From Rhodamnia argentea (lineage: Eukaryota > Streptophyta > Magnoliopsida > Myrtales > Myrtaceae): a stretch of DNA of 64,000 bases. The position numbers and the translations under genes are program-made. Shown here piece after piece: positions 48,540-62,980 of the stretch; position 1 is the first letter of the stretch, and the number at the start of each line of letters is the position of its first letter. Below the pieces are notes generated by a model. The model saw nothing but the letters and a program-made list of their open reading frames with translations. It did not search any database and was not told where the DNA came from. Location: contig NC_063160.1 of the NCBI RefSeq assembly GCF_020921035.1, forward strand, positions 17,015,095-17,079,094, read 5' to 3'.

Positions 48540-50316
48540 CACAGACACAAGAAACCAACAGACCAAAAAAATCGTTTGCTCAAGCTCCAATTTCCCTTTC
48601 CATTAAGACTCCAAAGGTTTTCAACTGGAAGTGCTGATATGGGGGACAGGCCATTGCTGCTGGGTGGAGTCTCGCACAATTATTGGTATTTTCTTAAGTT
48701 TTATGTTGAGTGAGACTCTTTTCTTAATAATTTATGGGGATAGTGTCCAACTGGGTATATGTAATAATGGGTCCCTTCAGCAATGTATTCTCATTCTCAT
48801 TTTCGTTTCTTGTTTGTCATCTTCTTTTTTGTTATTTAGGGGAGAGAGAGAGAAGATATTGTGGGTTAGCTAGCAGGTCATGCAAGCAAAGCAAGGAAAA
48901 AGAGAAAACGGGAGATGGGTGTCAAAGTCTGACAAGCATCTCCCATTTCAAAGAGTTTGAAACTTGAGCATGTTTATTAGAGCTCTTGGGAGAGCCTTAG
49001 GCCGTTAGGCGTGTGTCCTCCTCACTCTTTCACTTGGAAAGTGGATGATATAAGCCCATGAGAATTGTTGAAATTCGTAAGCCGCGCGTTCGAGTATTGG
49101 GTGCTCGTAAAAATGTTTTCTTTCTCGGAATAGATTATGATTTTTTGAGCTCAATTGGGCAACAACTTTTCCTTCACTTGGTTAGGGTTTGACCTGGCCC
49201 AGTTGGGCACTGGCTTGCAAACTTGTACCAAATTAAATTGTTCAGGCAAAATTTAAAATAGGAGTAGAGTTTTTTTCCAACAAAATATAGCAAAGAAAAA
49301 GAAAAGGCGTGCGACGGGAGGCTGGATGACAAATTAGGGAAGAAGAGTTGGTCATGATAGCCGACAAAATCCGACGCTTACGATGATAACGTGGGGGTGG
49401 GGGTGGTCCCACCTTTGTAATAATGGACCTTTGTATTTACTAAACAGGTTTCATCTTAAGGTCTTTTTTCCATGTCTTTCGTCCACAAGAAGTGTAAGGA
49501 AAGGAAGGGAACGTGGCCGTCACACTTCCCAGTGACCATAATTTAAGGGAATGCGTGTCGTACACTCCCTCGACTTTGTCAGGGCAAATCCGGGTTAGAG
49601 GTCAGGACAACCTCTTTTCACCTTTTTTATATAATGTTTTGTTCTTGAACCTTATTTTTGCTTTAGATATTTTGGGGAAACACTTTGCTTGCTTTCTCGT
49701 TTCAATCTCCCATCGCACTAAACTCCCAACTTTGTCGTTGCTGTTTCTCTGCTTTTTGAGCGTGTGTTTCTCTCTTGGCATTCAACTTGACGAGCGTCCT
49801 AGCAAAATTGTCCATGAGGTTCTTCATGAACCGTCGATGAGCGGCCCAGCATTCGCGTTCAGCGTTCTAGTCGTCGATACAGAATCCAAACAACTAGAAT
49901 TAACTGATTTTAACGTTTGCAAAATCTGGTTTAACATTTCCCCTTTCATGGGATTAGTCTGTTTAAGTATTCGGCGAAATGGTCCATGGATTTACCCCAC
50001 CTGATTCTCTTCTTGGTGAAGGCTTTGGTTGTTTCGTGTTCGGATCCTGGCTAGGAATTATAGACATGCCCCACTCAAGATAAACCGAACAAACTTTAGG
50101 ATGAAATTTATCAATTTTTCATCGATCGGACGGCATTCTGGAGCATATGGCTTTCTGCACGAAAATGCACCCAGAATTCCGTGCAATCTCCCACAGAAAA
50201 TTTTCTTCATCAGGGGTATTATAGGTGCTCTATGCTCTTCAAATACAACCATTATAAGTCAAAGTTAAGATCCAAGGGCAAAAATTACAAGGAGTAAGTA
50301 CATAAATATTACAGGT
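48518..50316. other. Intergenic: WAT1-related promoter and UVH3 3' flank
   Basis: No convincing gene. 48518-49000 should hold the promoter and 5' UTR of the WAT1-related gene. A 163-codon open frame at 49513-50004 (+) has no recognisable family and weak coding character. The right end should be UVH3 3' UTR. Confidence 0.45.
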
Positions 50317-53300
50317 TCAGCCTCTTCTCCGTTTTCTTATCAAGGAAGGCATGGCACTTAGAGATCCATAAGAGGCGATTCCTGAATCACGTGCTGCATT
50401 ATCCTCCGCTTGGAGATTGCCTGGAGAACGGCCATCGTCTCTGGTTTTTACACTGTTGGCAACGTCATCCTGCATAGAAGCCACATCTTTGGCACCCCTG
50501 TCACAAGGTACACCAGAAGTCATTTTGTGCGAATGGATTGATCGAGTCACAGAGTTCTCGAGCTCAGCTTCATCTGCAGGCTCTAAATATTCAAAGGACT
50601 CTTCATTTCCCTGTCCCAAAGGCTCATTAGCTATGTTATGAGCACTTCCAGGATCCTCGCTCGTCCTTCCTTCATCCGTACAAAAGCCACCACCCATTGT
50701 GAGATGATCTTCAGAAAGATCCTCTGGAGGGGAGTCAGGTCTCTGTTTTGGTTCACCAGTATCGGCGTCATCCTCACAAAACCCACCTCCCATGTTAAGG
50801 TAATCCATTTCTTTACTCCCCTCAAGACGAGGATTTCCAGCTGCAAGTTCACTCTTAAGTTCTGAAATAGCTGCATCACCATGTGCAGTAGGAGCACAGG
50901 GAGATTTGTATTCTGAGAACTCTTCCTCAGAGTCTTTGTCAGAACAGCGCGCTGATGCGTTGTCCTCCAAATTCTCCATATTGTAATTCACCTGCTTCCG
51001 ACTGCGTGCTGACTGCCGCCAAAACCAGGGAAATAAAAGTGCTTAAAAATGGCTCGGTAACTTAAACAAAGGAAGAGAAGCTCTAGATTATAGAAATACA
51101 TTTATTTCAACCTGTCTTAAACCAACTAAACCCCAAATCTCAAGGTCACTCCGAAACTAATTGGTTAAGGAGAAAAGGGCTCTTCCCTGGATCTAAAAAG
51201 CACAAAAATCTTAATTCTTCCACGCGAGTATAATACCTGAGAACCAAGTTCATTAAACATAGGAAAGACAGTAGTGGACAGCTCAAATCCGGATAACATA
51301 ATCCATGCAAGACAGCGCACTGCCTCTACATGGAATACTTGATTAGTTACATTCTCTAGACTGCCTGATAATTATACCAGCATACTCTTGCTCATTGCTC
51401 AGTTGCATTCTGGCATCCCATTAGTATTCGACAGACCAACCTTTCCTCAACAGTTGAATTCATTAAGTACTTTAATGACTGCGGAAAAAACCTGATGTCA
51501 GACTTGACTTGGCGTTATCAAGGAGAAAATGGAGGTTCACAAGCAAGTAGGACAGTTTAGTACTTCTACTACCTAAGTAACGCTTAGGCCATGACGACAA
51601 ACTGTTCTAGCTTATTTTTGGGGTTGAGTTTCCTAGAGTAGGTCAAGTTCAAGAAATTAAGAAGCCTTAGTGATTACACCCGTGGAAGGTTACCATCCCG
51701 TTCCAACAAAGTTTCTTCACTCTTAACTACACCTGAGAGCCCATCTGAAGTAGCATGATAACTTCATATTCTGATCAAATGAGTTCAAACCATAGATTGC
51801 AAGCCGAAAAAATAACAAAGCTAGTGCAGTACAGTACTATAATGAAACAAATCGAGATTAGGCAAATGTTCTACTTACTCTACGCACTTCTTGCCGTCCT
51901 TTGCACTCTTCTAACCACACCTCGTGCCCCACTTCAACACTATCCCCATCACTAGAGCTACCTTCTGATTTATCAGGGGTGGCCTTTCTACCTCTCCTAA
52001 TTTCTCCTTGGCCTCGGTCTCGGCCTCTTCCTCTTCCTCTACCTCTACCTCTTCCAGTCTGAAGAGACTGTTTATTGCCATCTCCACTGCTTTCCACCAG
52101 TTTTGAGGCATCTAAGTTCACTTCAGAAATAATAGGCTTTCCATGGATCCTTCTTTTCTTTGACTGCAAGGACTTTGATTTTGTCGAGCGGTATCTGAGA
52201 TTTCCAGTTGATTTTTCACCAGAGACATCACCGGAGCACCCTCTTCTTTTCTTTCCACTCCCATTAAGGACTTGGGCATCATCACCCATCGAGTCCAAAG
52301 ATTGGCTAGCAGTGATTTCTTTGACAGCTTTCTTAATTCTCTTACTACGGATTTTAGCAAATCTCTCGTTAAAAGAATAAAAAGCTTCCAATCGCAGCTG
52401 GGTCTGCATCACATAAGTAAAAAAGAAAAAATTTCAGCAATTCTGATTGTGATGGTTGGATGGGTAAAAATGTCGAGCTAACAAATGGTCCATGAAAATA
52501 CAAGGGAGACTTGTCTCTTCTTTGTATGGGGAAAAGATTGTGAGCATGGATGGGACGCATGTCTGTAGTTTGCAGCTGAGAGGCGCACATGCACATGCTT
52601 TTTTTTTTTTTTTGTGAGAGAGAGAGAGGGGGGGGGGGGGAAGCAACCTCATGCTTGTTGTATTCATTTAAGACCGGCACTAACAATTCATCTGCCTTTT
52701 GGGTAGCCCATCCAAACTTTTCCCCGCATAATCTGCCACAGATTAAGGACGTTGCATGAATGCATTCCACCATAAATAGTCAAGATGGCAGCAAATTTGG
52801 AATCAGCTAAAGATGTAACTCGGTAAAATGAGACAAAGAGCACAAAGACACATGATCTTTTCATTTATACTTCACTTTGCTCTTAAATGTCAGGAAGCTA
52901 TCTCATTCTAAAATCCAACCACATATCAAAAGACTCACTTGCGGAGAAGAAAATGATCCGGCTTGCCCCATGAGAAAGGCTCGGTTGACTTGTCCACTTG
53001 GGGAGTAGAATATGCAGATATTACCGCTTCACTTGGAAAAGTAGGAGGTATGTGCCAGTTTTTGCTAACTTTTCTCTACATAAGACAACATACGGTTTAT
53101 TTGACAATCATAAGAATCATGTGAACATAACATTTTAAAACCAATTAAAATTGAAAAATTAATTGACCCAAGGGATTAGAAAAAGGAAGTTACATGCTTC
53201 TCCATGAATTGCTGCTTCATCTCTTGGATTTTATCAATAGAATTTCTTTGCTCATAAGATGGGGACAAATTCTGCTCCGATGAAGGTGGTCCACATTGAG

Positions 53301-56300
53301 CACCTTCTGGACCGTTGATGCCGTTATTGCTAGTTTTTGACCCTCTCCTCCCAACAGTGGATCCTTCAGGAACATCAGCCTTCCCAAGAATGGTTGGATC
53401 TGGTGATTCAACCCACTCACGGAATTTTTGAAGACCATCTGCCTCTGGAAATGCATTTACAACTTCAATGGCATTAACAATGCCAATTCCACTGCAGTAA
53501 AACACATCCAAACAAAGTCAAACTGACAAAAAGCACTCACCAAGTATTATAAGGATACAGAAACTCACTTAGACCCAAGTACAGAAAATGATCACACATG
53601 ATGATTTAAAAAGCAGAAAAACAAACCTCAATATCTTACTTACTAGTACGATATATAACAACAGCAAACCTAAAGACAACGAAGTGCCAAACTCTTCAAA
53701 AGATGCGTGAACAGAACCCAAAAGATTAAGAACGAAAATCTTGCATGGAATTACCTAACACCTTCAGTATAATCACTCCCAAGGAGCAATGCCATACATA
53801 TCAATTTATCTCTGGAAAGACCAAGCTCCTTCTCTATGTCCTAGAAAAATGAACAATAATGTAAGAAAGCCATGGAGGAAACCCAACAATCTGCTGAGAA
53901 AATCGAACAAGATCTATTCAACGATAAACCGGCTACATCCAAAACTAAAATTTCTATGAGACTACGTAGTTTGATAGGAATAGAACTACAGCAAGATAGC
54001 AAATATCTCAATGTTTACTGTAGTAAGAGGACTGTTTGGCAACCATGCCAGATCCAAACCTTCATGAAGTACGTCTCCACATACTTGCGATCATCAAATA
54101 TATTCTTATAGACACTTCGTGAGCCAAACAAGAACACATCAGAATCATCAGTAACTACACCATCAACTATGTTTGCCAGTTCCATGTAAGCACATTGAGC
54201 TTCTGCTTCCATAGGTGCAATGATGTATGGCAATCCAAACATTTGCAACAGCTCCTGCATAGAAAAACATCTGCCCTGCATTAGACAACCTGTGTCTTTT
54301 CCAGTGATTGCTATCCACTTATCCCAAAACAAGGGGGACACATACGTAAAAGAAAAACAGTTCCTAGACAAAAAAGATAGAGAAAAACACTGTAGCAACT
54401 CCATGACATTTCCTTGAGAAAAAAGATAGAGAAAAGCACCGTAGCAACTCCATGACATTCGCTTTTTGTGAAATTAACATGCAAAACTTGCTATAACAAA
54501 GGGCAGTCCGTTCTAACCTAAACTCAATGACGGATCTAGAACATAGGCCATGGAGGGGACAAAATGCTAATGGAATTTTACATCATCATTGATAGCAAGT
54601 TATTCTAAGAATGATCAAGAGTAAATTTTAATTTAACAACTATAACATTAGATATCTTACTGAGTATATTAGCAAAAAACAATCACCTAAAGTAATTTAG
54701 GTCGAGGACAATGTTAGAGAATAGCTAAATCATTAATAATTACGTCGACATGCCAAAATTTTAAAGATACCATAATCATCTCAAGTTTCCTATCCAATTT
54801 CCTAGTGCATTTTGGCTCCAAGAAACCAAACTTACGTGTTCTGTAATTTACAATGATGAAGATTGATAATGTGAAACTGTAAAATCGCAACCACCGCAGG
54901 GGCAGCCCAGAGACAGAGGCACTGGAAATGTGAGAATGAGATTGGACGTACACCAGTTGCAGCTATTACTGACAAGATTGAAGACTTAAAATGAGGATAC
55001 TTTTAAAGAAGCATCCGGTGATTTCTGACAAGAAGTACAACACCTGTAAACATATCATTGGACCACACATTCGTTGTAGGATGGGAAACCAAACTTGACA
55101 GTACATCAACATATATTCATTCTAGTAAGATTGCTACCGATGGTATAAGGGGTCGAAACTTCCCATTCTTCATCATGAAAATCTTTCCAATAATTGCACA
55201 CTAACAAATTTACATATACATGGGCCTCATTGCGCCCTATAAGCTCGAGTTTCTCAAGGGACAGTTTACTCCCAATACTATTACCTACGTAACCACTACA
55301 TTAAGTGAAAGAGCCATAATTGTCCTAAATTCTGTCAATAGCAACTATGGCCAGATGCAAAATTCAAAAGCAATACCCAAAGCTTGGTGCATACCTGACA
55401 CTCTGCAAACATTTCGCTACTGACAGACTCGGCATTGCGTTCTAGCTTTTTCTGCATGTCCCCTAGCTTTATACTTTCTTGACCCAATTTCCGCATTTCC
55501 TCCTCCAAATTTGCCCTGGCGAATTCTAACTGCACATTTTCCTTATCCTCAAATGCAAATCTCTCGACATTTGGCAACTGTCCTGAGGGATTATCGTCAA
55601 GATTGCTATGCACCTCAACCGCGTCACATGTTGATTCTCTTCTCAATGAGAGCAAAGCATCAGATGAAAGCTTAATTTCCTCAGCATAGGGGGATGCTTG
55701 TACAGCCTCGGTATTTTTCTTCCCATCAATTCGACCATCACCAGACATTTCAGCACATATTTCATCATCGACGCACACTTCCCTTGAATGCTCGTCCTTG
55801 GGAGCAGATAACACACAACTTGCACCAGAAATATCCAATGGCTTGCCTGGACTCAAATTCCTCTCTATTTCTAGAGAAGTCAAGTCGACCAGAGGCTTTT
55901 TTTGCCCTGACGGTGCAACCCTAGAACCTTGAAATGTTTCATCAAATTCTTTGATTGGCATCCCCACTTTATCCAAATTACATGAATTTGAAAATTCTCC
56001 TTTGTTTTCTAAAGAATCAACCACCTGCAAACGGCAACCCACATCAGGGCTACCAGGATTTATAGAACCGTCCACTAATGTTTTCTCTCTTTCTGATACT
56101 TTAGAAGCATATCCAGTTACGGAAGTTTGCTTTACTGTACGGTTCTCTAAATCACAGAGCATAGTATCTTCATGACTCTTTTCTCCGTCAGTTTCGCTCT
56201 CATGATCCATTTGCGGTGCCCCATTTGATCTCTGATCCACAAGACTTCTCCTAATTGCCTCATGCAGATCAGCATCTTCCTCAAGATAACCTCTTGAAAC

Positions 56301-59300
56301 AGGTTTTCTGGGCTCAACATGGCAAGTGGAGGCATCCTTTGAAACGTCAGAAAATCCTTCCTCCCACTCCACGTCGCTATCATCACTAATTTTCCCCTCT
56401 TCAAGAGGCTCAATTTCAACTCGATCATCACAGGAAAAGCTCTCGCCTTTCTGCCCATGACACTCAAAATCTGAACAGGCATCAGAAGACTGTGTCCTTG
56501 ATGTGATTTTTCCAGGAGAAGATAAGGATGCTGAATCTCCCGCTACTAACCGAATAAATAATTGATCATCATCATTCAAAGTCTTGCTTTCACCATCATC
56601 TTCAAAGGATATTTTTATCGAATTACCATCCCCAAACATAGAATGCTCGTGACTCTCATTCAAATTGGCAGTTCTACTAACATCATTTGTTGATGTTTCA
56701 GCCAAAAGATCATTTCTTACAATAACAATATTACTTTCCACTCCAGACTCAGTGTCCAGCATACTACTTGAATGGGCATTGATATGTGTCTGGTCCTGCT
56801 CAATTTCTCTCATCATATCCAAGTTCCTCTGCAAGTCACGGGTCATACGGACTCCCATAGCCCTTACACGACTGACTTTAATGCGCCCTCTCTCATCAAA
56901 AAAAGTTTCAACACCATCTTTGAAGCTAACTCTGGATTTTTTAGGAACCAAGTCTTTCACTGCATTGGACTTATCATTAGATGAGACTCCACTATCAGAA
57001 ATGGAGGAAAGATTATCCATCCCGGTCTGGTGTTCTCTACTTTTATTTCTCTGTGCTTCAGCAGATGTAAGCATTCTGACAGATTCAGACATGACAATAG
57101 ACAAACGTCAAGAAATATCACAGGTGAGTTGGAATAAACATTGAGTTTTACCAAAAGCTGAATATTACTCTTTATTCCCAGTGAATGAAGAAGAGAATAT
57201 AAATTCTCTATTGGCTTCTGAGGCAATCCTTGAAGTTTGTACTCCACCGACTCCATTGCCAACAGCAGCTTTTTGCACTTGATTAATCTCCCGGCGCAGC
57301 GCAACAGCTCTTAGATAGGACTGTATTTGTAGCTCAGAAAACTTTTCAGGAGCCTGCACTAAAGAATCAACACACTTACAATTCTACTGAAATGACACCT
57401 TCCTTTAAATCGTAACAACAAATGGATATAAGAGCACATTTAATAAGTCTCATTCCTAAGAAATTTTTTCCTTAGACAGGTACATCCTATTAAGTTTTGA
57501 TCACATAGCAGAAAAACCAGGGTCCCAAAATAACTTTTGATTTATGAAGGTAGAGGCAACTGGCATATGCCATTTTGATATGTAGTATGTACAAGAGAGA
57601 TACATGGAGAGAACAACAACATTTTACAAGGGCCAATTTTAAGTGGGAAACACAGAAATAACTAAACAACCATATTTCTGAGTAACCATCTTCATCTGAA
57701 ATAACTGCAGTCGCTACTATATTTATTGGCAATAGCAAATTTCTGACTCAACGCTATCTCTTCAAGGATGTTCAAAAAGAATGTCACGCCATGACCCCAC
57801 CCAATTACTGGTCTAAGATGCATGATACTGTTTCTTGAGCAAATACTTCTCATCCTGAAGAAAATTTATAAGGACCATAAAGTCATCATACCAGCAATAT
57901 GATGCATACGAAATTCAAATATAAGTACCATTCATTCTGCTAGATGTCAAATATTAACGGATCATAACTTATGAGCACCATAATCAGTATTCTAGAAATA
58001 GATGGCCACCCATATACTAGAGGCTTCGCATGTTCTAGGACTTTCTGTCGTACACAGCGTTGTTACTGAGTAATATCATGTAACGCTAAGTTTGCCCTCA
58101 AATAATTATCAAAAGATATACATAACTTCATAGAAAAATTCATACATATCATTTCCAAAATAAACATAAATGAAATGGAAACAAAAGTAAAAGACACCAG
58201 ATGGACCATTCATGCAGCATCGACCAAAACAGTCATAGCAGCAGAAATCTGTGATGTATACTTTTTTAGTATTCTCTAAGAAAGATAAGAACCGACCTTT
58301 TTTACTTTCTGATACTTCTGTCGGTTTTCTGCCATTTGTCGCTCCTTCATCTGTTTAAAAAAGGCCAAAAATCTTAAGAATCTAAAAACAGGAACATAAA
58401 GCAGAAAATCCATACCAAGACTGCAAAAGATCCATGAGAAATGAAATTTCTAACCTGAGCCAAAAGATCGAGCCTCACTGATAGAGGCAAAGAATTTAAT
58501 ACATCACGATCAACATTCCCGTGCACTTCTGGCTAGAATACACATCAACCAGCTAATGAGAATGCTTCTACCTTACGCACAACAACAGTAAGAACAACAA
58601 TAGTAACGCCAAATCTTTCAGAAATAGTAGGGTTGTCTATGTGAAACCTATTAGACTATTGCATCTTGCATAAGACAGTAAAAGACTGCAAATTCCTGTC
58701 AACAAATTTCTCTTTTCTTTCCTTATTCCTCAGAAAGGTATGTAGTCAAACACAGAAGCAAGCATTTGGACGTATGCTGCATTTCAATAACAAAAGTCTC
58801 ACACAACAAAGGCAGATAGAAGTTCTCGATGTCCATATACCATTCTCAAGAGCCATTTGTTTACAAAGTGACGTTTATTTTACCTACTTTCACAACAATC
58901 TTCAGTTGATATCATACACACTAAATGTGTATATGTGTGTGTGTGCATTTGTAACCTCCAATACTGCTGTATCCACACTTACCACAATCATTTCTTCATC
59001 TGTATCGTTATCTTCCTCCTCAGAAAATATCTGAGGGGCAGAGGTTGACGCAGTATATGCCATCTCACCTTCTTCTGCCATAATGGACGCTGCCAGCCTA
59101 ATTCAAGACAACATTTAGCAAATACTCAACAAAAAAAAAACGTCATACTAAATAGAATGTGCGAGCATACTACATCTCATCAAGCTTCCCCTGATCATGG
59201 CGAGTTGAATTTAGATCATTTTGATCCCTTTTGACACTGTCATTTTGACATGATAACTCCTCCTGAACAGTAATGCAATGGGAGGTTAAATTAGCAACAC

Positions 59301-61251
59301 CATTGTATCAGCAAACTTCCAGTATTCCACAATAACAGATGAAATGCATCAAAATAGCAAACTTTTTCAGCTTCTAAATGGTGTTGACTATCAGCACCTT
59401 CCAGCCTCTTTCCCATCTGCACATGAATGAAAGATAAGTTACCAATCAACATTAGCAGTAACTTAGGGTAACAATAATACTAAAAGACTGTAGGATAGAG
59501 AAGAGTATATTTGCTAAGAAGTCACCTGGACTCGTAGCTCGGGTGGCAATACCTCTAGTACAGCTGGATCAATTTTTTCAATCGTGTCAGGCTACAAAAT
59601 GATCAAGAGAGGATGTCAGTTTTACATCTCAAAATTAGATGAAGTAGCATCAATGGGACTAAGGCTAGAGACGGGGAATTCCATATTGGGCACTAATAAT
59701 CCTGTGCAAAAAAGAAGTATCAAAACTAAATTCCAAAGCTAGAATACACCATAGCAGCTCTAAACCTAGGTTAGCCAGCAAAGGGTGGCATCTCAATAGA
59801 AACTTGAGAAGCAAGAAAGTTCCCGCCAAATAAAGCATACCAGAATCATCTCTTCTTCTTCATTATCTTCATCAGAAGAAATCACAGTTTGGGATGTTGA
59901 TGCAATTTTAGCAAATCTCTGCTCTTCCTCTGCTGCAATAGATGCTGCCAACCTAAACAAAATCATTACGAAAATCAACCACGTGAACCAATCACCAATG
60001 AAAGAGAAGATGATCGTAAAATGCTTAGAGAAAACCTCACATTTCATCTAGCTTTTCCTGGTCATGGCGAGCATTTCCCATTGTACCAGATTGGTCATAT
60101 AAAACCTTCTTACCCTTGGCATCACTCATTTGTTTTTGCCTCTTTATATCTTCTGCCAATTCTTTCAGCCTCAGAGTTTTAAGCTGCAACAGCAAAAGGG
60201 GAACAAAAGTCATGTAAGAACAATCCAATGGCATGATCGCTAAAATAGCGCCGTGCAGCACAGCAGAGAGAAACTAAAGGCACTTTACAACCAAGGCCTT
60301 GAGGAAAAGAAGCCACGCACAGCAATTAAGGTCACATCCACACTAAACGAATTCGAGATGGATGATTGCTATACGTGGCTAGGATTGAGCGTCAGTAAAC
60401 TAAACTCTCAAGGTAATTGGAAAGTATCAGAATTATAAAAACCCTGAAGACCCTAGATACAGAAATGATGTGACTTTACTATCAAACCACCAAAAAGCAC
60501 AATACACGTGTTTATTACGTCAATACTCTTCCTCAAGGAAAAGTTAATTTTTTGGCCTCCAAGCTCGATCAGTGGTTATAAACGAAAATAAGGGTATGGA
60601 AATTCTAACACAGCAATATCAAGTAAATATGCCATTTAATCACTTCCTATCATCTGAAAGCTAATCTCACTAATTTATCAGTTCTTACAACGGAACATCT
60701 CAATTAGGTAGACGTGGTCTCATTAGCTTCATTGCTTGACATTCCACTCCACGACATAGCACTTAAAGTTAGCAAGAATCAAAATGGGACTGCTCCGCTA
60801 AATCCACTCACGTGATTGAGAAGCAACTTCTCAGCAGTCTTCCGGATTTTGGCCTGCGCGTTCTCGCGCTGCCTCCGGCGAGCGACGACGGTGCGCCTCT
60901 TGAGAGCGGGCGTGCCGCCGTCGAAGACGAACACGGGCTTCGTCCTGAGGAACAGGAGCTTGCAAATGCGGCGGAAGAAGCCAAGCAAGTGCGCGTTGCG
61001 GACCATCTCTCCTCTCTCGTCCCGCATGGCCTTCATGAACTGCACCATCCAGATACTGGCATCTGCAGCAGCGTAGAGAAAAGAGAAGCTCGATTAGGCG
61101 CGAACTCGGACGGGTGAAAAGCGATCGGCGAGCGAGGAAGTGGCAGGGAGGAAGAGGAAGCACCGATGGCGAGCTTTTTCCCGGCGAGGGTCTCGACGGA
61201 GACGCGGCGACCGACGGGAGCGAGGAGTTCCCATAGACCGTGGACCCCCAT
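50317..61251 (-). CDS. UVH3: DNA repair 3' endonuclease UVH3/XPG (ERCC5/Rad2)
   Basis: Structure-specific nuclease cutting 3' of lesions in nucleotide excision repair. Nineteen exons: 61164-61251, 60812-61062, 60041-60183, 59841-59952, 59526-59591, 59363-59416, 59174-59262, 58983-59097, 58455-58532, 58297-58350, 57169-57353, 55395-57075, 54060-54254, 53755-53840, 53194-53491, 52939-53075, 52648-52732, 51879-52403, 50317-51012. All phases agree: 1,645 aa. The XPG-N domain is at 1-110 ([26 protein letters not shown]). The long acidic spacer in exon 12 has a ubiquitin-interacting-type motif ([11 protein letters not shown]). The XPG-I domain is at about 975-1065 with [11 protein letters not shown] and [20 protein letters not shown] and the GIGIVNA helix-hairpin-helix follow. 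The C-terminus has an RG-rich tract and basic NLS-like ends (RKRRRG). It is longer than Arabidopsis UVH3, partly from an internal duplication of exons 3-6 as exons 7-10. Confidence 0.96.
52615..52640. repeat. CT plus C-run beside a UVH3 splice donor
   Basis: On the sense strand intron 17 opens GTTGCTT, then a C run of about 12, then CTCTCTCT and a long A tract. The low-complexity block begins about 7 nt inside the intron. Confidence 0.9.
58297..60183 (-). repeat. Four-exon intragenic tandem duplication in UVH3
   Basis: Exons 3-6 (60183-59363) and exons 7-10 (59262-58297) have matching order, phase and protein text. Exons 3 and 7 both end RHDQ(E/G)KLDE with a 2-nt remainder. Exons 4 and 8 (112 and 115 nt) both code MLAASI, ASTS and EEMI. 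Exons 5 and 9 (66 and 78 nt) code [17 protein letters not shown] and [17 protein letters not shown]. Exons 6 and 10 are both 54 nt, [18 protein letters not shown] and [18 protein letters not shown]. The second copy is closer to the usual plant sequence. At the protein level the two are about half identical, so the event is old. Confidence 0.85.
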
Positions 61252-62476
61252 TTCTTTATTTGCCTCCGATTTTTCGATTTGGTCAGCATTTTATACGGGG
61301 GTTGGCGATGGAGACGACGGAGAGGAAGATAGTCGGTCGGTCCAGCGGGCTGCGCGGGTCTTTGACGGGCTTAAACCGAGCCTACTGGCAAAGGTCAGGC
61401 CGGGCCAGTTCTGTCTCCCGACCTGCGCTCCTTGCCCGAAAAAACAAAAACCGAGCCCGGCCCATTTGAGAGACTAGCGGGTCGGTCGAGTCACCGTATT
61501 GTCAGATTCGGCCCATTCAAAAGCCTTTGTTGTAGTGCGAATTTTGGAAGGTGTATAATTTATTAATTCCGACAAATAAAAGAACCTCGTGTTCTGACCC
61601 AAAAAAAGGAAAAAAAAAAAAAAAGGAACTCTCTTTGGATGATTGGGTGGGACGACAGGCGTGACATGATTTCATCCGAAAAATAAGTTTCATCTTGCCG
61701 TAAAAATTTCTATTTTTTTTTCTGAAAACGCAAAAAAAAAAAAAAATTCTTCGTTCATTTTCATTTTCCATCTCCATTTAAACCGATACTATCTACAGTC
61801 ACACAAAAGCATAACTTTTATGGGTTTCCGAATCCATGTTAAGATAACAATCTGCTAAATATATTTTAGCGTTTCTTATTTGCACTTGAAAAGTTTGATG
61901 AAAATAACCAAACATAATCGGAACTGCCCAAAATCCTATTCTCGTCCATTCTCGTGCTCCGATGTCGTAACTCGTCTAACGCATGACCGGACAGATAGTG
62001 GGGATGGTCGGGCAGGGAGGACTGTCGGGGTCGAATCGTCGGCGAGACCCATAGACGAGAGAAAAGGAAAAACGAAAGAAAAACAAGTCTTTGATATAAT
62101 TGATGAATGAACTGTTGAAGATTCCTTTGAATATATAAGTAGAGTTTTTATTCTATACAACCTTTGTATTGTGTACGCCTTCCAAGTCTAACAAAACCCC
62201 CCAGAACAACTCGTTAGATTCCATCAACCCGACACGCATCAATCAATCGTCGATGAACAAAAGAATGTCAACCCACGTACGACACCGTTTGGCTTTTCCC
62301 CCGGTCGGAGGGAAAAGCGAACACGTCAGACATAGCTCCACATCCCTCCGACGACGACGGCAATCCCAGGTCGCGAAGATCCGTCCTCCACAAATGCGGC
62401 CATCGGTCAGCGGAGTAACGGTTCTCTCTCTCTCTCTCTCTCTCTCTCCAGGAGCAGCGCGGTGAGCGGGCGGGCG
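61252..62476. other. Intergenic: UVH3 promoter and 3' flank of the right-hand gene
   Basis: No gene seen. 61252-61500 is moderately GC-rich and should be the UVH3 5' UTR and promoter. A CT microsatellite lies at 62421-62449, in the expected 3' UTR of the leftward gene ending at 62477. Confidence 0.5.
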
Positions 62477-62980
62477 TCACGTGAACAGGGGGCCGCTGTG
62501 GTTCCCGAGGTCCATCGAGGACTTGCACGACGCCGGGATCGAGGCGTATCTTGACGAGAAGTCGCGGCGGAGGACGTCCTCCTCGAACAGGGGGTGGCCG
62601 TTCTGCCCGGGGCCCTCGTCGAAGTTCAGCGCGTAGCTCAGCGGGTCGTACCGGAACTGCGGGTTCCGGCTGAACCGGTTCTTGTTGAACCGCCGTATGA
62701 ACGTCTTCCACCTCGGGCCCGCCACCAGCTCCGACCACTCCCGCACCCTGTGCCACCCCCGCGCCCACCACGGGTCGTCCGGGGTGTCCCCGACCCGCTC
62801 CCACCAGTTCGTCCCGGCGGGCGCGGCGACGGCGGGCGGGCGGTCCACGTCGTCGTCGGAGGAGCCGAGGAAGGGCACCCAGAAGCAGCACCCCCGCTTG
62901 GCGAAGGCGGCGTCCGCGGATTCGTCGCTGGACCCGCGGTCCCGCCGAGGGGAGACCTCGAGGGAATGCGAGGACGACAT
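62477..62980 (-). CDS. Conserved plant protein of unknown function (ALNFDEG motif)
   Basis: Single-exon frame of 167 aa. The ATG at 62978-62980 (MSSSHSLEVSPRRD) is the first Met. The frame stays open upstream without another ATG. The N-terminus is Ser/Asp-rich and disordered, followed by a Cys/Trp patch (GCCFWVPFLG), then Trp-rich WWERV and WWARGWHRVREW, then WKTFIRRFN and FRYDPLSYALNFDEGPGQN, which I recall from a family of small plant proteins without known function. The C-terminus ends SSMDLGNHSGPLFT. Basic helix and Trp-rich segments could bind membranes or partners, but that is inference. GC content is high. Confidence 0.8.
   Translation of the reverse strand: MSSSHSLEVSPRRDRGSSDESADAAFAKRGCCFWVPFLGSSDDDVDRPPAVAAPAGTNWWERVGDTPDDPWWARGWHRVREWSELVAGPRWKTFIRRFNKNRFSRNPQFRYDPLSYALNFDEGPGQNGHPLFEEDVLRRDFSSRYASIPASCKSSMDLGNHSGPLFT

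Follow-up and report, generated by a model that had tools for sequence, protein, structure and literature searches.

Two diverged copies of a four-exon module with UBM-like cores in the spacer of a UVH3/XPG-type gene of Rhodamnia argentea

In human XPG, according to the accessible part of PMC11445577, the anchor comprises residues 157-296 and is helical; it was predicted, given a position on XPD and fitted into cryo-EM density, and in the human model the lobes formed by the nuclease core and the anchor connect one junction of the repair bubble with the other. The D1 box of human XPG overlaps a predicted ubiquitin-binding motif (UBM), as the accessible part of PMC8888383 describes. In REV1, a repair protein with two such motifs, eight contact positions are given for UBM2 (D, V, F, L, P, L, E and L; accessible part of PMC8468184). 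Here we describe a UVH3/XPG-type gene located on the minus strand of a stretch of 64,000 nucleotides from Rhodamnia argentea (NCBI RefSeq assembly GCF_020921035.1, contig NC_063160.1, positions 17,015,095 to 17,079,094). This whole stretch is called the window below, and all coordinates are counted from its first letter. In this gene, four exons of the spacer that follows the N-terminal nuclease domain are present in two copies.

We confirmed that exons 3-6 and 7-10 are a real tandem, in-frame duplication of four exons. On the minus strand the two copies run from 60183, the start of exon 3, to 58297, the end of exon 10, which are exactly the limits given in the original prediction. Copy 1 opens with the 3' part of exon 3 (60041..60183, 143 nt) and continues with exon 4 (59841..59952, 112 nt), exon 5 (59526..59591, 66 nt) and exon 6 (59363..59416, 54 nt). 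Copy 2 starts with exon 7 (59174..59262, 89 nt), followed by exon 8 (58983..59097, 115 nt), exon 9 (58455..58532, 78 nt) and exon 10 (58297..58350, 54 nt). Entry phases (0, 2, 0, 0) and exit phases (2, 0, 0, 0) are common to both copies, with phase 0-0 for both exons of 54 nt. The duplicated unit consists of a KLDE-LAASI stretch, then an acidic stretch (EEEEMIL at the close of exon 4, DEEMIV at the close of exon 8), then a UBM-like/D1-box core in exons 5 and 9. Exon 5 encodes four residues fewer than exon 9, and the two cores are 108 residues apart, start to start. Exon 3 is 54 nt longer than exon 7; this difference equals the length of exons 6 and 10, probably by coincidence.

The peptides of exons 3-6 and 7-10 share 37 identical residues out of 91, with a Smith-Waterman score of 153. 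None of 10,000 shuffles was as good (mean 35.2, standard deviation 6.3, maximum 77), which corresponds to a z value of 18.6. We also compared each exon pair separately with 10,000 shuffles. Pair 3/7 had a score of 50 and pair 4/8 a score of 67, and no shuffle reached either of them; the local alignment of pair 3/7 was restricted to the last 14 residues. Pair 5/9 scored 30 (p 0.007), and these two exons were mutual best partners among the 11 exon peptides (next scores 18 and 19). Pair 6/10, with a score of 15, was not significant (p 0.20), and only length, phase and place link these two exons. Of the pair that had been described as a basic exon of 54 nt, the length holds for both members, while the basic character belongs to exon 10 (net charge +5) and not to exon 6 (net charge -1). 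At the DNA level, an ungapped repeat search found the pair 59172-59204 and 60039-60071 (33 nt, 85%), and among the matches listed (20 of 25 families) no other repeat family linked corresponding exons. A six-frame scan of positions 50000-62000 gave no convincing third copy, since the matches scoring at least 30 outside both copies were short and reached a maximum of 36. Exon 8 read through into intron 8 (58953-58985, minus strand) equals the score of exon 9 against exon 5; this stretch is devoid of the Leu-Pro pair and its likeness may be due to chance.

Beyond what the original prediction had described, we found that the core encoded in each of exons 5 and 9 is similar to a ubiquitin-binding motif. 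The whole peptide matched the Pfam UBM model (PF14377) with 23.1 bits in two stretches, the better one in exon 9, and so narrowly missed the cut-off of 23.3; separately, exon 9 scored 19.2-19.9 bits and exon 5 scored 13.6-13.9 bits. We also ranked all 57,276 stop-free 17-mers from the six frames of the whole window by likeness to the two REV1 UBMs (background mean -16.6, standard deviation 7.8). The cores of copy 1 and copy 2 took ranks 1 and 2, with scores of 47.5 for copy 1 when read on into the intron (46.5 when spliced) and 29.0 for copy 2, followed by 20.0 for the next 17-mer. In shuffles, a likeness as good arose 0 times in 100,000 for copy 1 and once in 100,000 for copy 2. As a measure of sequence likeness this ranking is a stronger test than the Pfam UBM score, with the reservation that it was not blind for copy 1, because the references were chosen after copy 1 had matched REV1. 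That match came from a comparison of copy 1 with the PDB, where REV1 (5vzm) was the best of four matches with an E value of 0.0027 over the complete chain (taken singly, its two stretches have E values of 1.5 and 120) and where no XPG match was found at E 10.

The exon 5 core has 10/17 and 7/17 identities to the two REV1 UBMs, compared to 6/17 and 6/17 for the exon 9 core; to human XPG the identities are 5/17 and 4/17, respectively, which makes exon 5 marginally the closer one. At the eight contact positions of REV1 UBM2 the series reads D, V, L, L, P, L, Q and M in copy 1 and D, V, L, L, P, V, D and L in copy 2, giving five identities out of eight for either copy. Both copies contain the Leu-Pro core together with the D, V, L/F and L/V contact residues. 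Some of the substitutions are seen elsewhere: Pol iota shares V for L, and the remaining REV1 motif shares L for F as well as Q for E (accessible part of PMC8468184). The position of the salt bridge with ubiquitin R42 is occupied by Asp in copy 2 and by Gln in copy 1. When the KLDE-LAASI stretch was read as a ubiquitin-interacting motif (UIM), neither copy gave a Pfam match; a more canonical-looking stretch downstream gave none as well, so this test has little power.

The duplication apparently lies within the spacer region through which human XPG contacts TFIIH, as had been proposed and as the accessible parts of PMC11445577 and PMC8888383 describe for the human protein. Exons 9-11 align in one run, though weakly (12.5 bits, E 1.6), with human XPG residues 188-254, and the same human stretch also appears as the second domain in the PDB comparison of the gene peptide. 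We scanned the first 412 residues with the Rad2 family model TIGR00600, the cut-off of which (1204.4) is meant for a whole protein. The two-copy peptide scored 197.4 bits in two pieces, compared to one piece of 213.5 bits after removal of exons 5-8 and one piece of 205.3 bits after removal of exons 7-10. The higher one-piece scores with one copy indicate that the family model expects a single module and that either copy fits, copy 2 slightly better. The notion that the first copy has drifted is true in part. It agrees with the altered exon 6, with the four residues missing from exon 5 and with the 8 bits by which the form retaining exons 9-10 exceeds the other; on the other hand, the exon 5 core is the nearer one to the REV1 UBMs and, marginally, to human XPG.

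For pairs 3/7, 4/8 and 5/9 (72 codons), the rate of synonymous substitution Ks was 1.44 (bootstrap range 0.78 to infinite, with 8% of the replicates infinite) and that of nonsynonymous substitution Ka was 0.48 (0.32-0.66). Ka was at least as large as Ks in 1 of 2,000 bootstraps, and the Fisher p value was 4e-4. With the doubtful alignment of pair 6/10 added (91 codons), Ka was 0.49, the proportion of synonymous differences was 0.76, which is past the Jukes-Cantor limit, and Ks was saturated, with 54% of bootstraps infinite; nucleotide identity was 56% over 273 sites. Since this four-pair Ks leans on the non-significant pair 6/10, we use the 72-codon estimate, with which neither the saturation nor a rejection of neutral drift for copy 1 stands as firmly. 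None of the five intron pairs beat shuffles at p 0.05 (p 0.08-0.83). With a Ks of 1.44 and introns that no longer align, the duplication event is apparently old and a recent origin looks unlikely, though the lower bound of 0.78 may leave room for a younger event. In woody eudicots Ks values above 1 correspond roughly to the early eudicot triplication or to older events, a scale that is uncalibrated for this gene. As the divergence points to an old event, the suggestion that the duplication may be lineage-specific found no support, without being refuted.

The explanation that we prefer, tentatively and at a little under an even chance, is an old intragenic duplication in which the segment from the 3' part of exon 3 to the end of exon 6 would have been copied in frame. 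Copy 2, which continues into exon 11 in the manner of human XPG 188-254, would keep the job of anchoring to XPD in TFIIH, while copy 1 would sit in a lengthened linker between the nuclease core and the anchor and would be retained as an additional UBM-like contact with ubiquitin or TFIIH. With an insertion between the nuclease core and the anchor lobes, the approximately 108 extra residues would either loosen the tether or add a contact. We lean modestly toward the added contact, because copy 1 has kept its UBM-like core while the four residues that follow, like the basic exon, have disappeared or been altered. Such a contact may be weak, given that copy 1 has Gln at the ubiquitin salt-bridge position, as the N-terminal REV1 motif does; this Gln argues for weak ubiquitin binding at best.

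A number of observations weigh against this explanation. Both single cores are under the Pfam UBM cut-off, and an invented Leu-Pro control peptide got 16.0 bits, more than the 13.9 of copy 1, which means that the Pfam model by itself is unspecific at this level. With human XPG as the reference, the two copies rank only 4 and 7 among the 17-mers. The Gln of copy 1 takes the place of the Glu by which REV1 UBM2 pairs with ubiquitin R42, and the REV1 motif nearest to copy 1 is, in the accessible part of PMC8468184, generally considered non-binding for ubiquitin. The match of exons 9-11 to human XPG is weak, as its E value shows, and copy 1, copy 2 and copy 2 with exon 11, each taken without the nuclease domain, had no TIGR00600 match at E 10. 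The score of 30 for pair 5/9 has rivals as well, namely 31 for the unrelated pair 1/3 and, in the six-frame scan, 30 for the intron-8 read-through at 58985-58953 against exon 5 and 36 for an unrelated stretch at 55616-55572 against exon 9. With rivals at 30-36, the case for pair 5/9 is made by its p value, place, phase and the common UBM likeness. Finally, the synonymous excess may stem from copy 2 alone. If copy 1 were unconstrained and only copy 2 constrained, Ka would be expected at about half of Ks, and it reached at least that value in 287 of 2,000 bootstraps of the 72-codon set. As Ka came up to Ks just once but to half of Ks this often, constraint is indicated for the two copies jointly; for copy 1 by itself we regard it as likely.

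The same bootstraps favor the idea that copy 1 is only a longer flexible linker, an open frame fixed by chance with no contact of its own. The exon 6 peptide that is no longer like exon 10 and the shortened exon 5 fit this idea too; the intact reading frame and GT-AG sites of copy 1, and a UBM core closer to REV1 than that of copy 2, speak for something more, and we rate the pure linker as possible but clearly on the improbable side. Alternative splicing of the copies, with one- and two-module proteins made from one gene, appears unlikely to us. Jumps from exon 3 to 8, 4 to 9, 5 to 10 and 6 to 11 are all in frame, each yielding a one-copy protein; the in-frame removals that restore one copy amount to 321, 324, 336 and 336 nt, among them the 324 nt of exons 5-8, as had been noted before. 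The donor of exon 6 (AAA|gtttgc) looks poor by eye. However, such jumps come automatically with any tandem duplication that keeps phase, and the splice sites were judged by eye only.

Another possibility concerns age and is compatible with any of the functional readings: the two-copy layout could be ancestral and ordinary in many or all flowering plants, any single-copy plants having lost one copy. The Ks of 1.44 with its lower bound of 0.78 and the unalignable introns agree with this, and we give it nearly even chances. Against it stands, as background and not as a test, that Arabidopsis UVH3 has one UBM-like stretch. By contrast, chance likeness is refuted by the empty shuffle count (0 of 10,000) and an assembly duplication by the nucleotide identity of 56% over 273 sites, which is much lower than an assembly error could explain; we hold either to be extremely improbable.

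The gene starts at 61251, and eleven exons were placed on the minus strand down to approximately 57168, and all 10 intervening introns, as placed, have GT-AG borders. Exon 1 (61164..61251) contains the start of XPG_N and exon 2 (60812..61062) the remainder; this domain (PF00752) scored 107.1 bits in the gene peptide, compared to a cut-off of 22. The single exon 11 (57168..57353), with which the alignment extends to human XPG residue 254, has a provisional 3' end, as a GT donor is absent at 57168 and present one base earlier. XPG_I (PF00867) was found in the open reading frame (ORF) 54015-54473 with 72.8 bits (cut-off 24.9). The spacer from XPG_N to XPG_I is long, with exons 3-11 and a 590-codon ORF (55335-57107) between exon 2 and XPG_I, an extent read from separate exons and ORFs and not from one joined gene model. 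The closest PDB matches of the gene peptide were Rad2 and XPG, and ERCC-5 chains 9pd3-9pd5 are present in the PDB. Weak Pfam/NCBIfam matches below the cut-offs (DNA_polI_exo1, Tam41, DUF4842, DASH_Dam1 and lipid_A_lpxH) were set aside.

A search with exons 3-11 in the 346.7-Mb genome gave no second UVH3 gene, all nine matches at E up to 10 lying inside this gene. In the viral collection, 12 pattern matches to exon 2 and 81 to exon 11 were obtained, and in the prokaryote collection 588 to exon 11; none were confirmed, and these empty results are uninformative on the distribution among plants. Upstream of the XPG_I match, in the direction of the gene and in the same open frame, there is a 49-bp tandem repeat (54357-54459, 2.1 copies, 90% matches), which is perhaps intronic. 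A stretch of the acidic spacer ORF at 56242-56282 (minus strand) resembles a UIM by eye; Pfam gave no UIM match to it, neither as a short piece nor within the whole ORF. The adjacent 167-codon open frame at 62477-62980 (minus strand) had no Pfam match at E 1.

From the accessible parts of the literature, well short of a full survey, we infer that this XPG segment may serve ubiquitin, TFIIH or both. A diverged pair within one natural gene, a UBM-like core with a shortened sequence behind it and a core in its complete anchor setting, would offer a way to examine the two roles separately. We consider it rather doubtful that the two UBM/D1-box modules have split a once-shared job, with a ubiquitin-facing core in copy 1 and the TFIIH anchor in copy 2. 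If this were true, XPG would be a tandem-UBM repair protein like REV1, and 3' incision would be linked to ubiquitin signals in nucleotide excision repair. No report of a duplication in a plant XPG spacer was found among the matches listed, judged by title and the start of the abstract, which is weak evidence of novelty with the subscription literature mostly outside; none of four peptide strings was printed in the literature searched by text. The duplication affects a core repair gene and is more specific than the original prediction saw, yet the module that its exons repeat is a known one.

Among known systems, the spacer of human XPG/ERCC5/Rad2 is similar in that XPG_N and XPG_I are found here too and that exons 9-11 have a weak counterpart in human 188-254. 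The difference is that the human protein has one D1-box region, whereas here a second, diverged UBM-like/D1-box copy precedes it. Tandem exon duplications with mutually exclusive splicing likewise have adjacent, phase-matched exon copies, but the unit here is four exons. With the tandem UBM1-UBM2 of REV1 (and of DNA polymerase iota) this gene has in common two UBM-like cores in one repair protein, spaced by the same order of distance (108 residues here, 78 in 5vzm_B). Copy 1 is closest to the N-terminal REV1 motif (10/17), with the same Gln. In contrast to REV1, the cores described here, which are putative UBMs, arose together with whole exons and in a nuclease.

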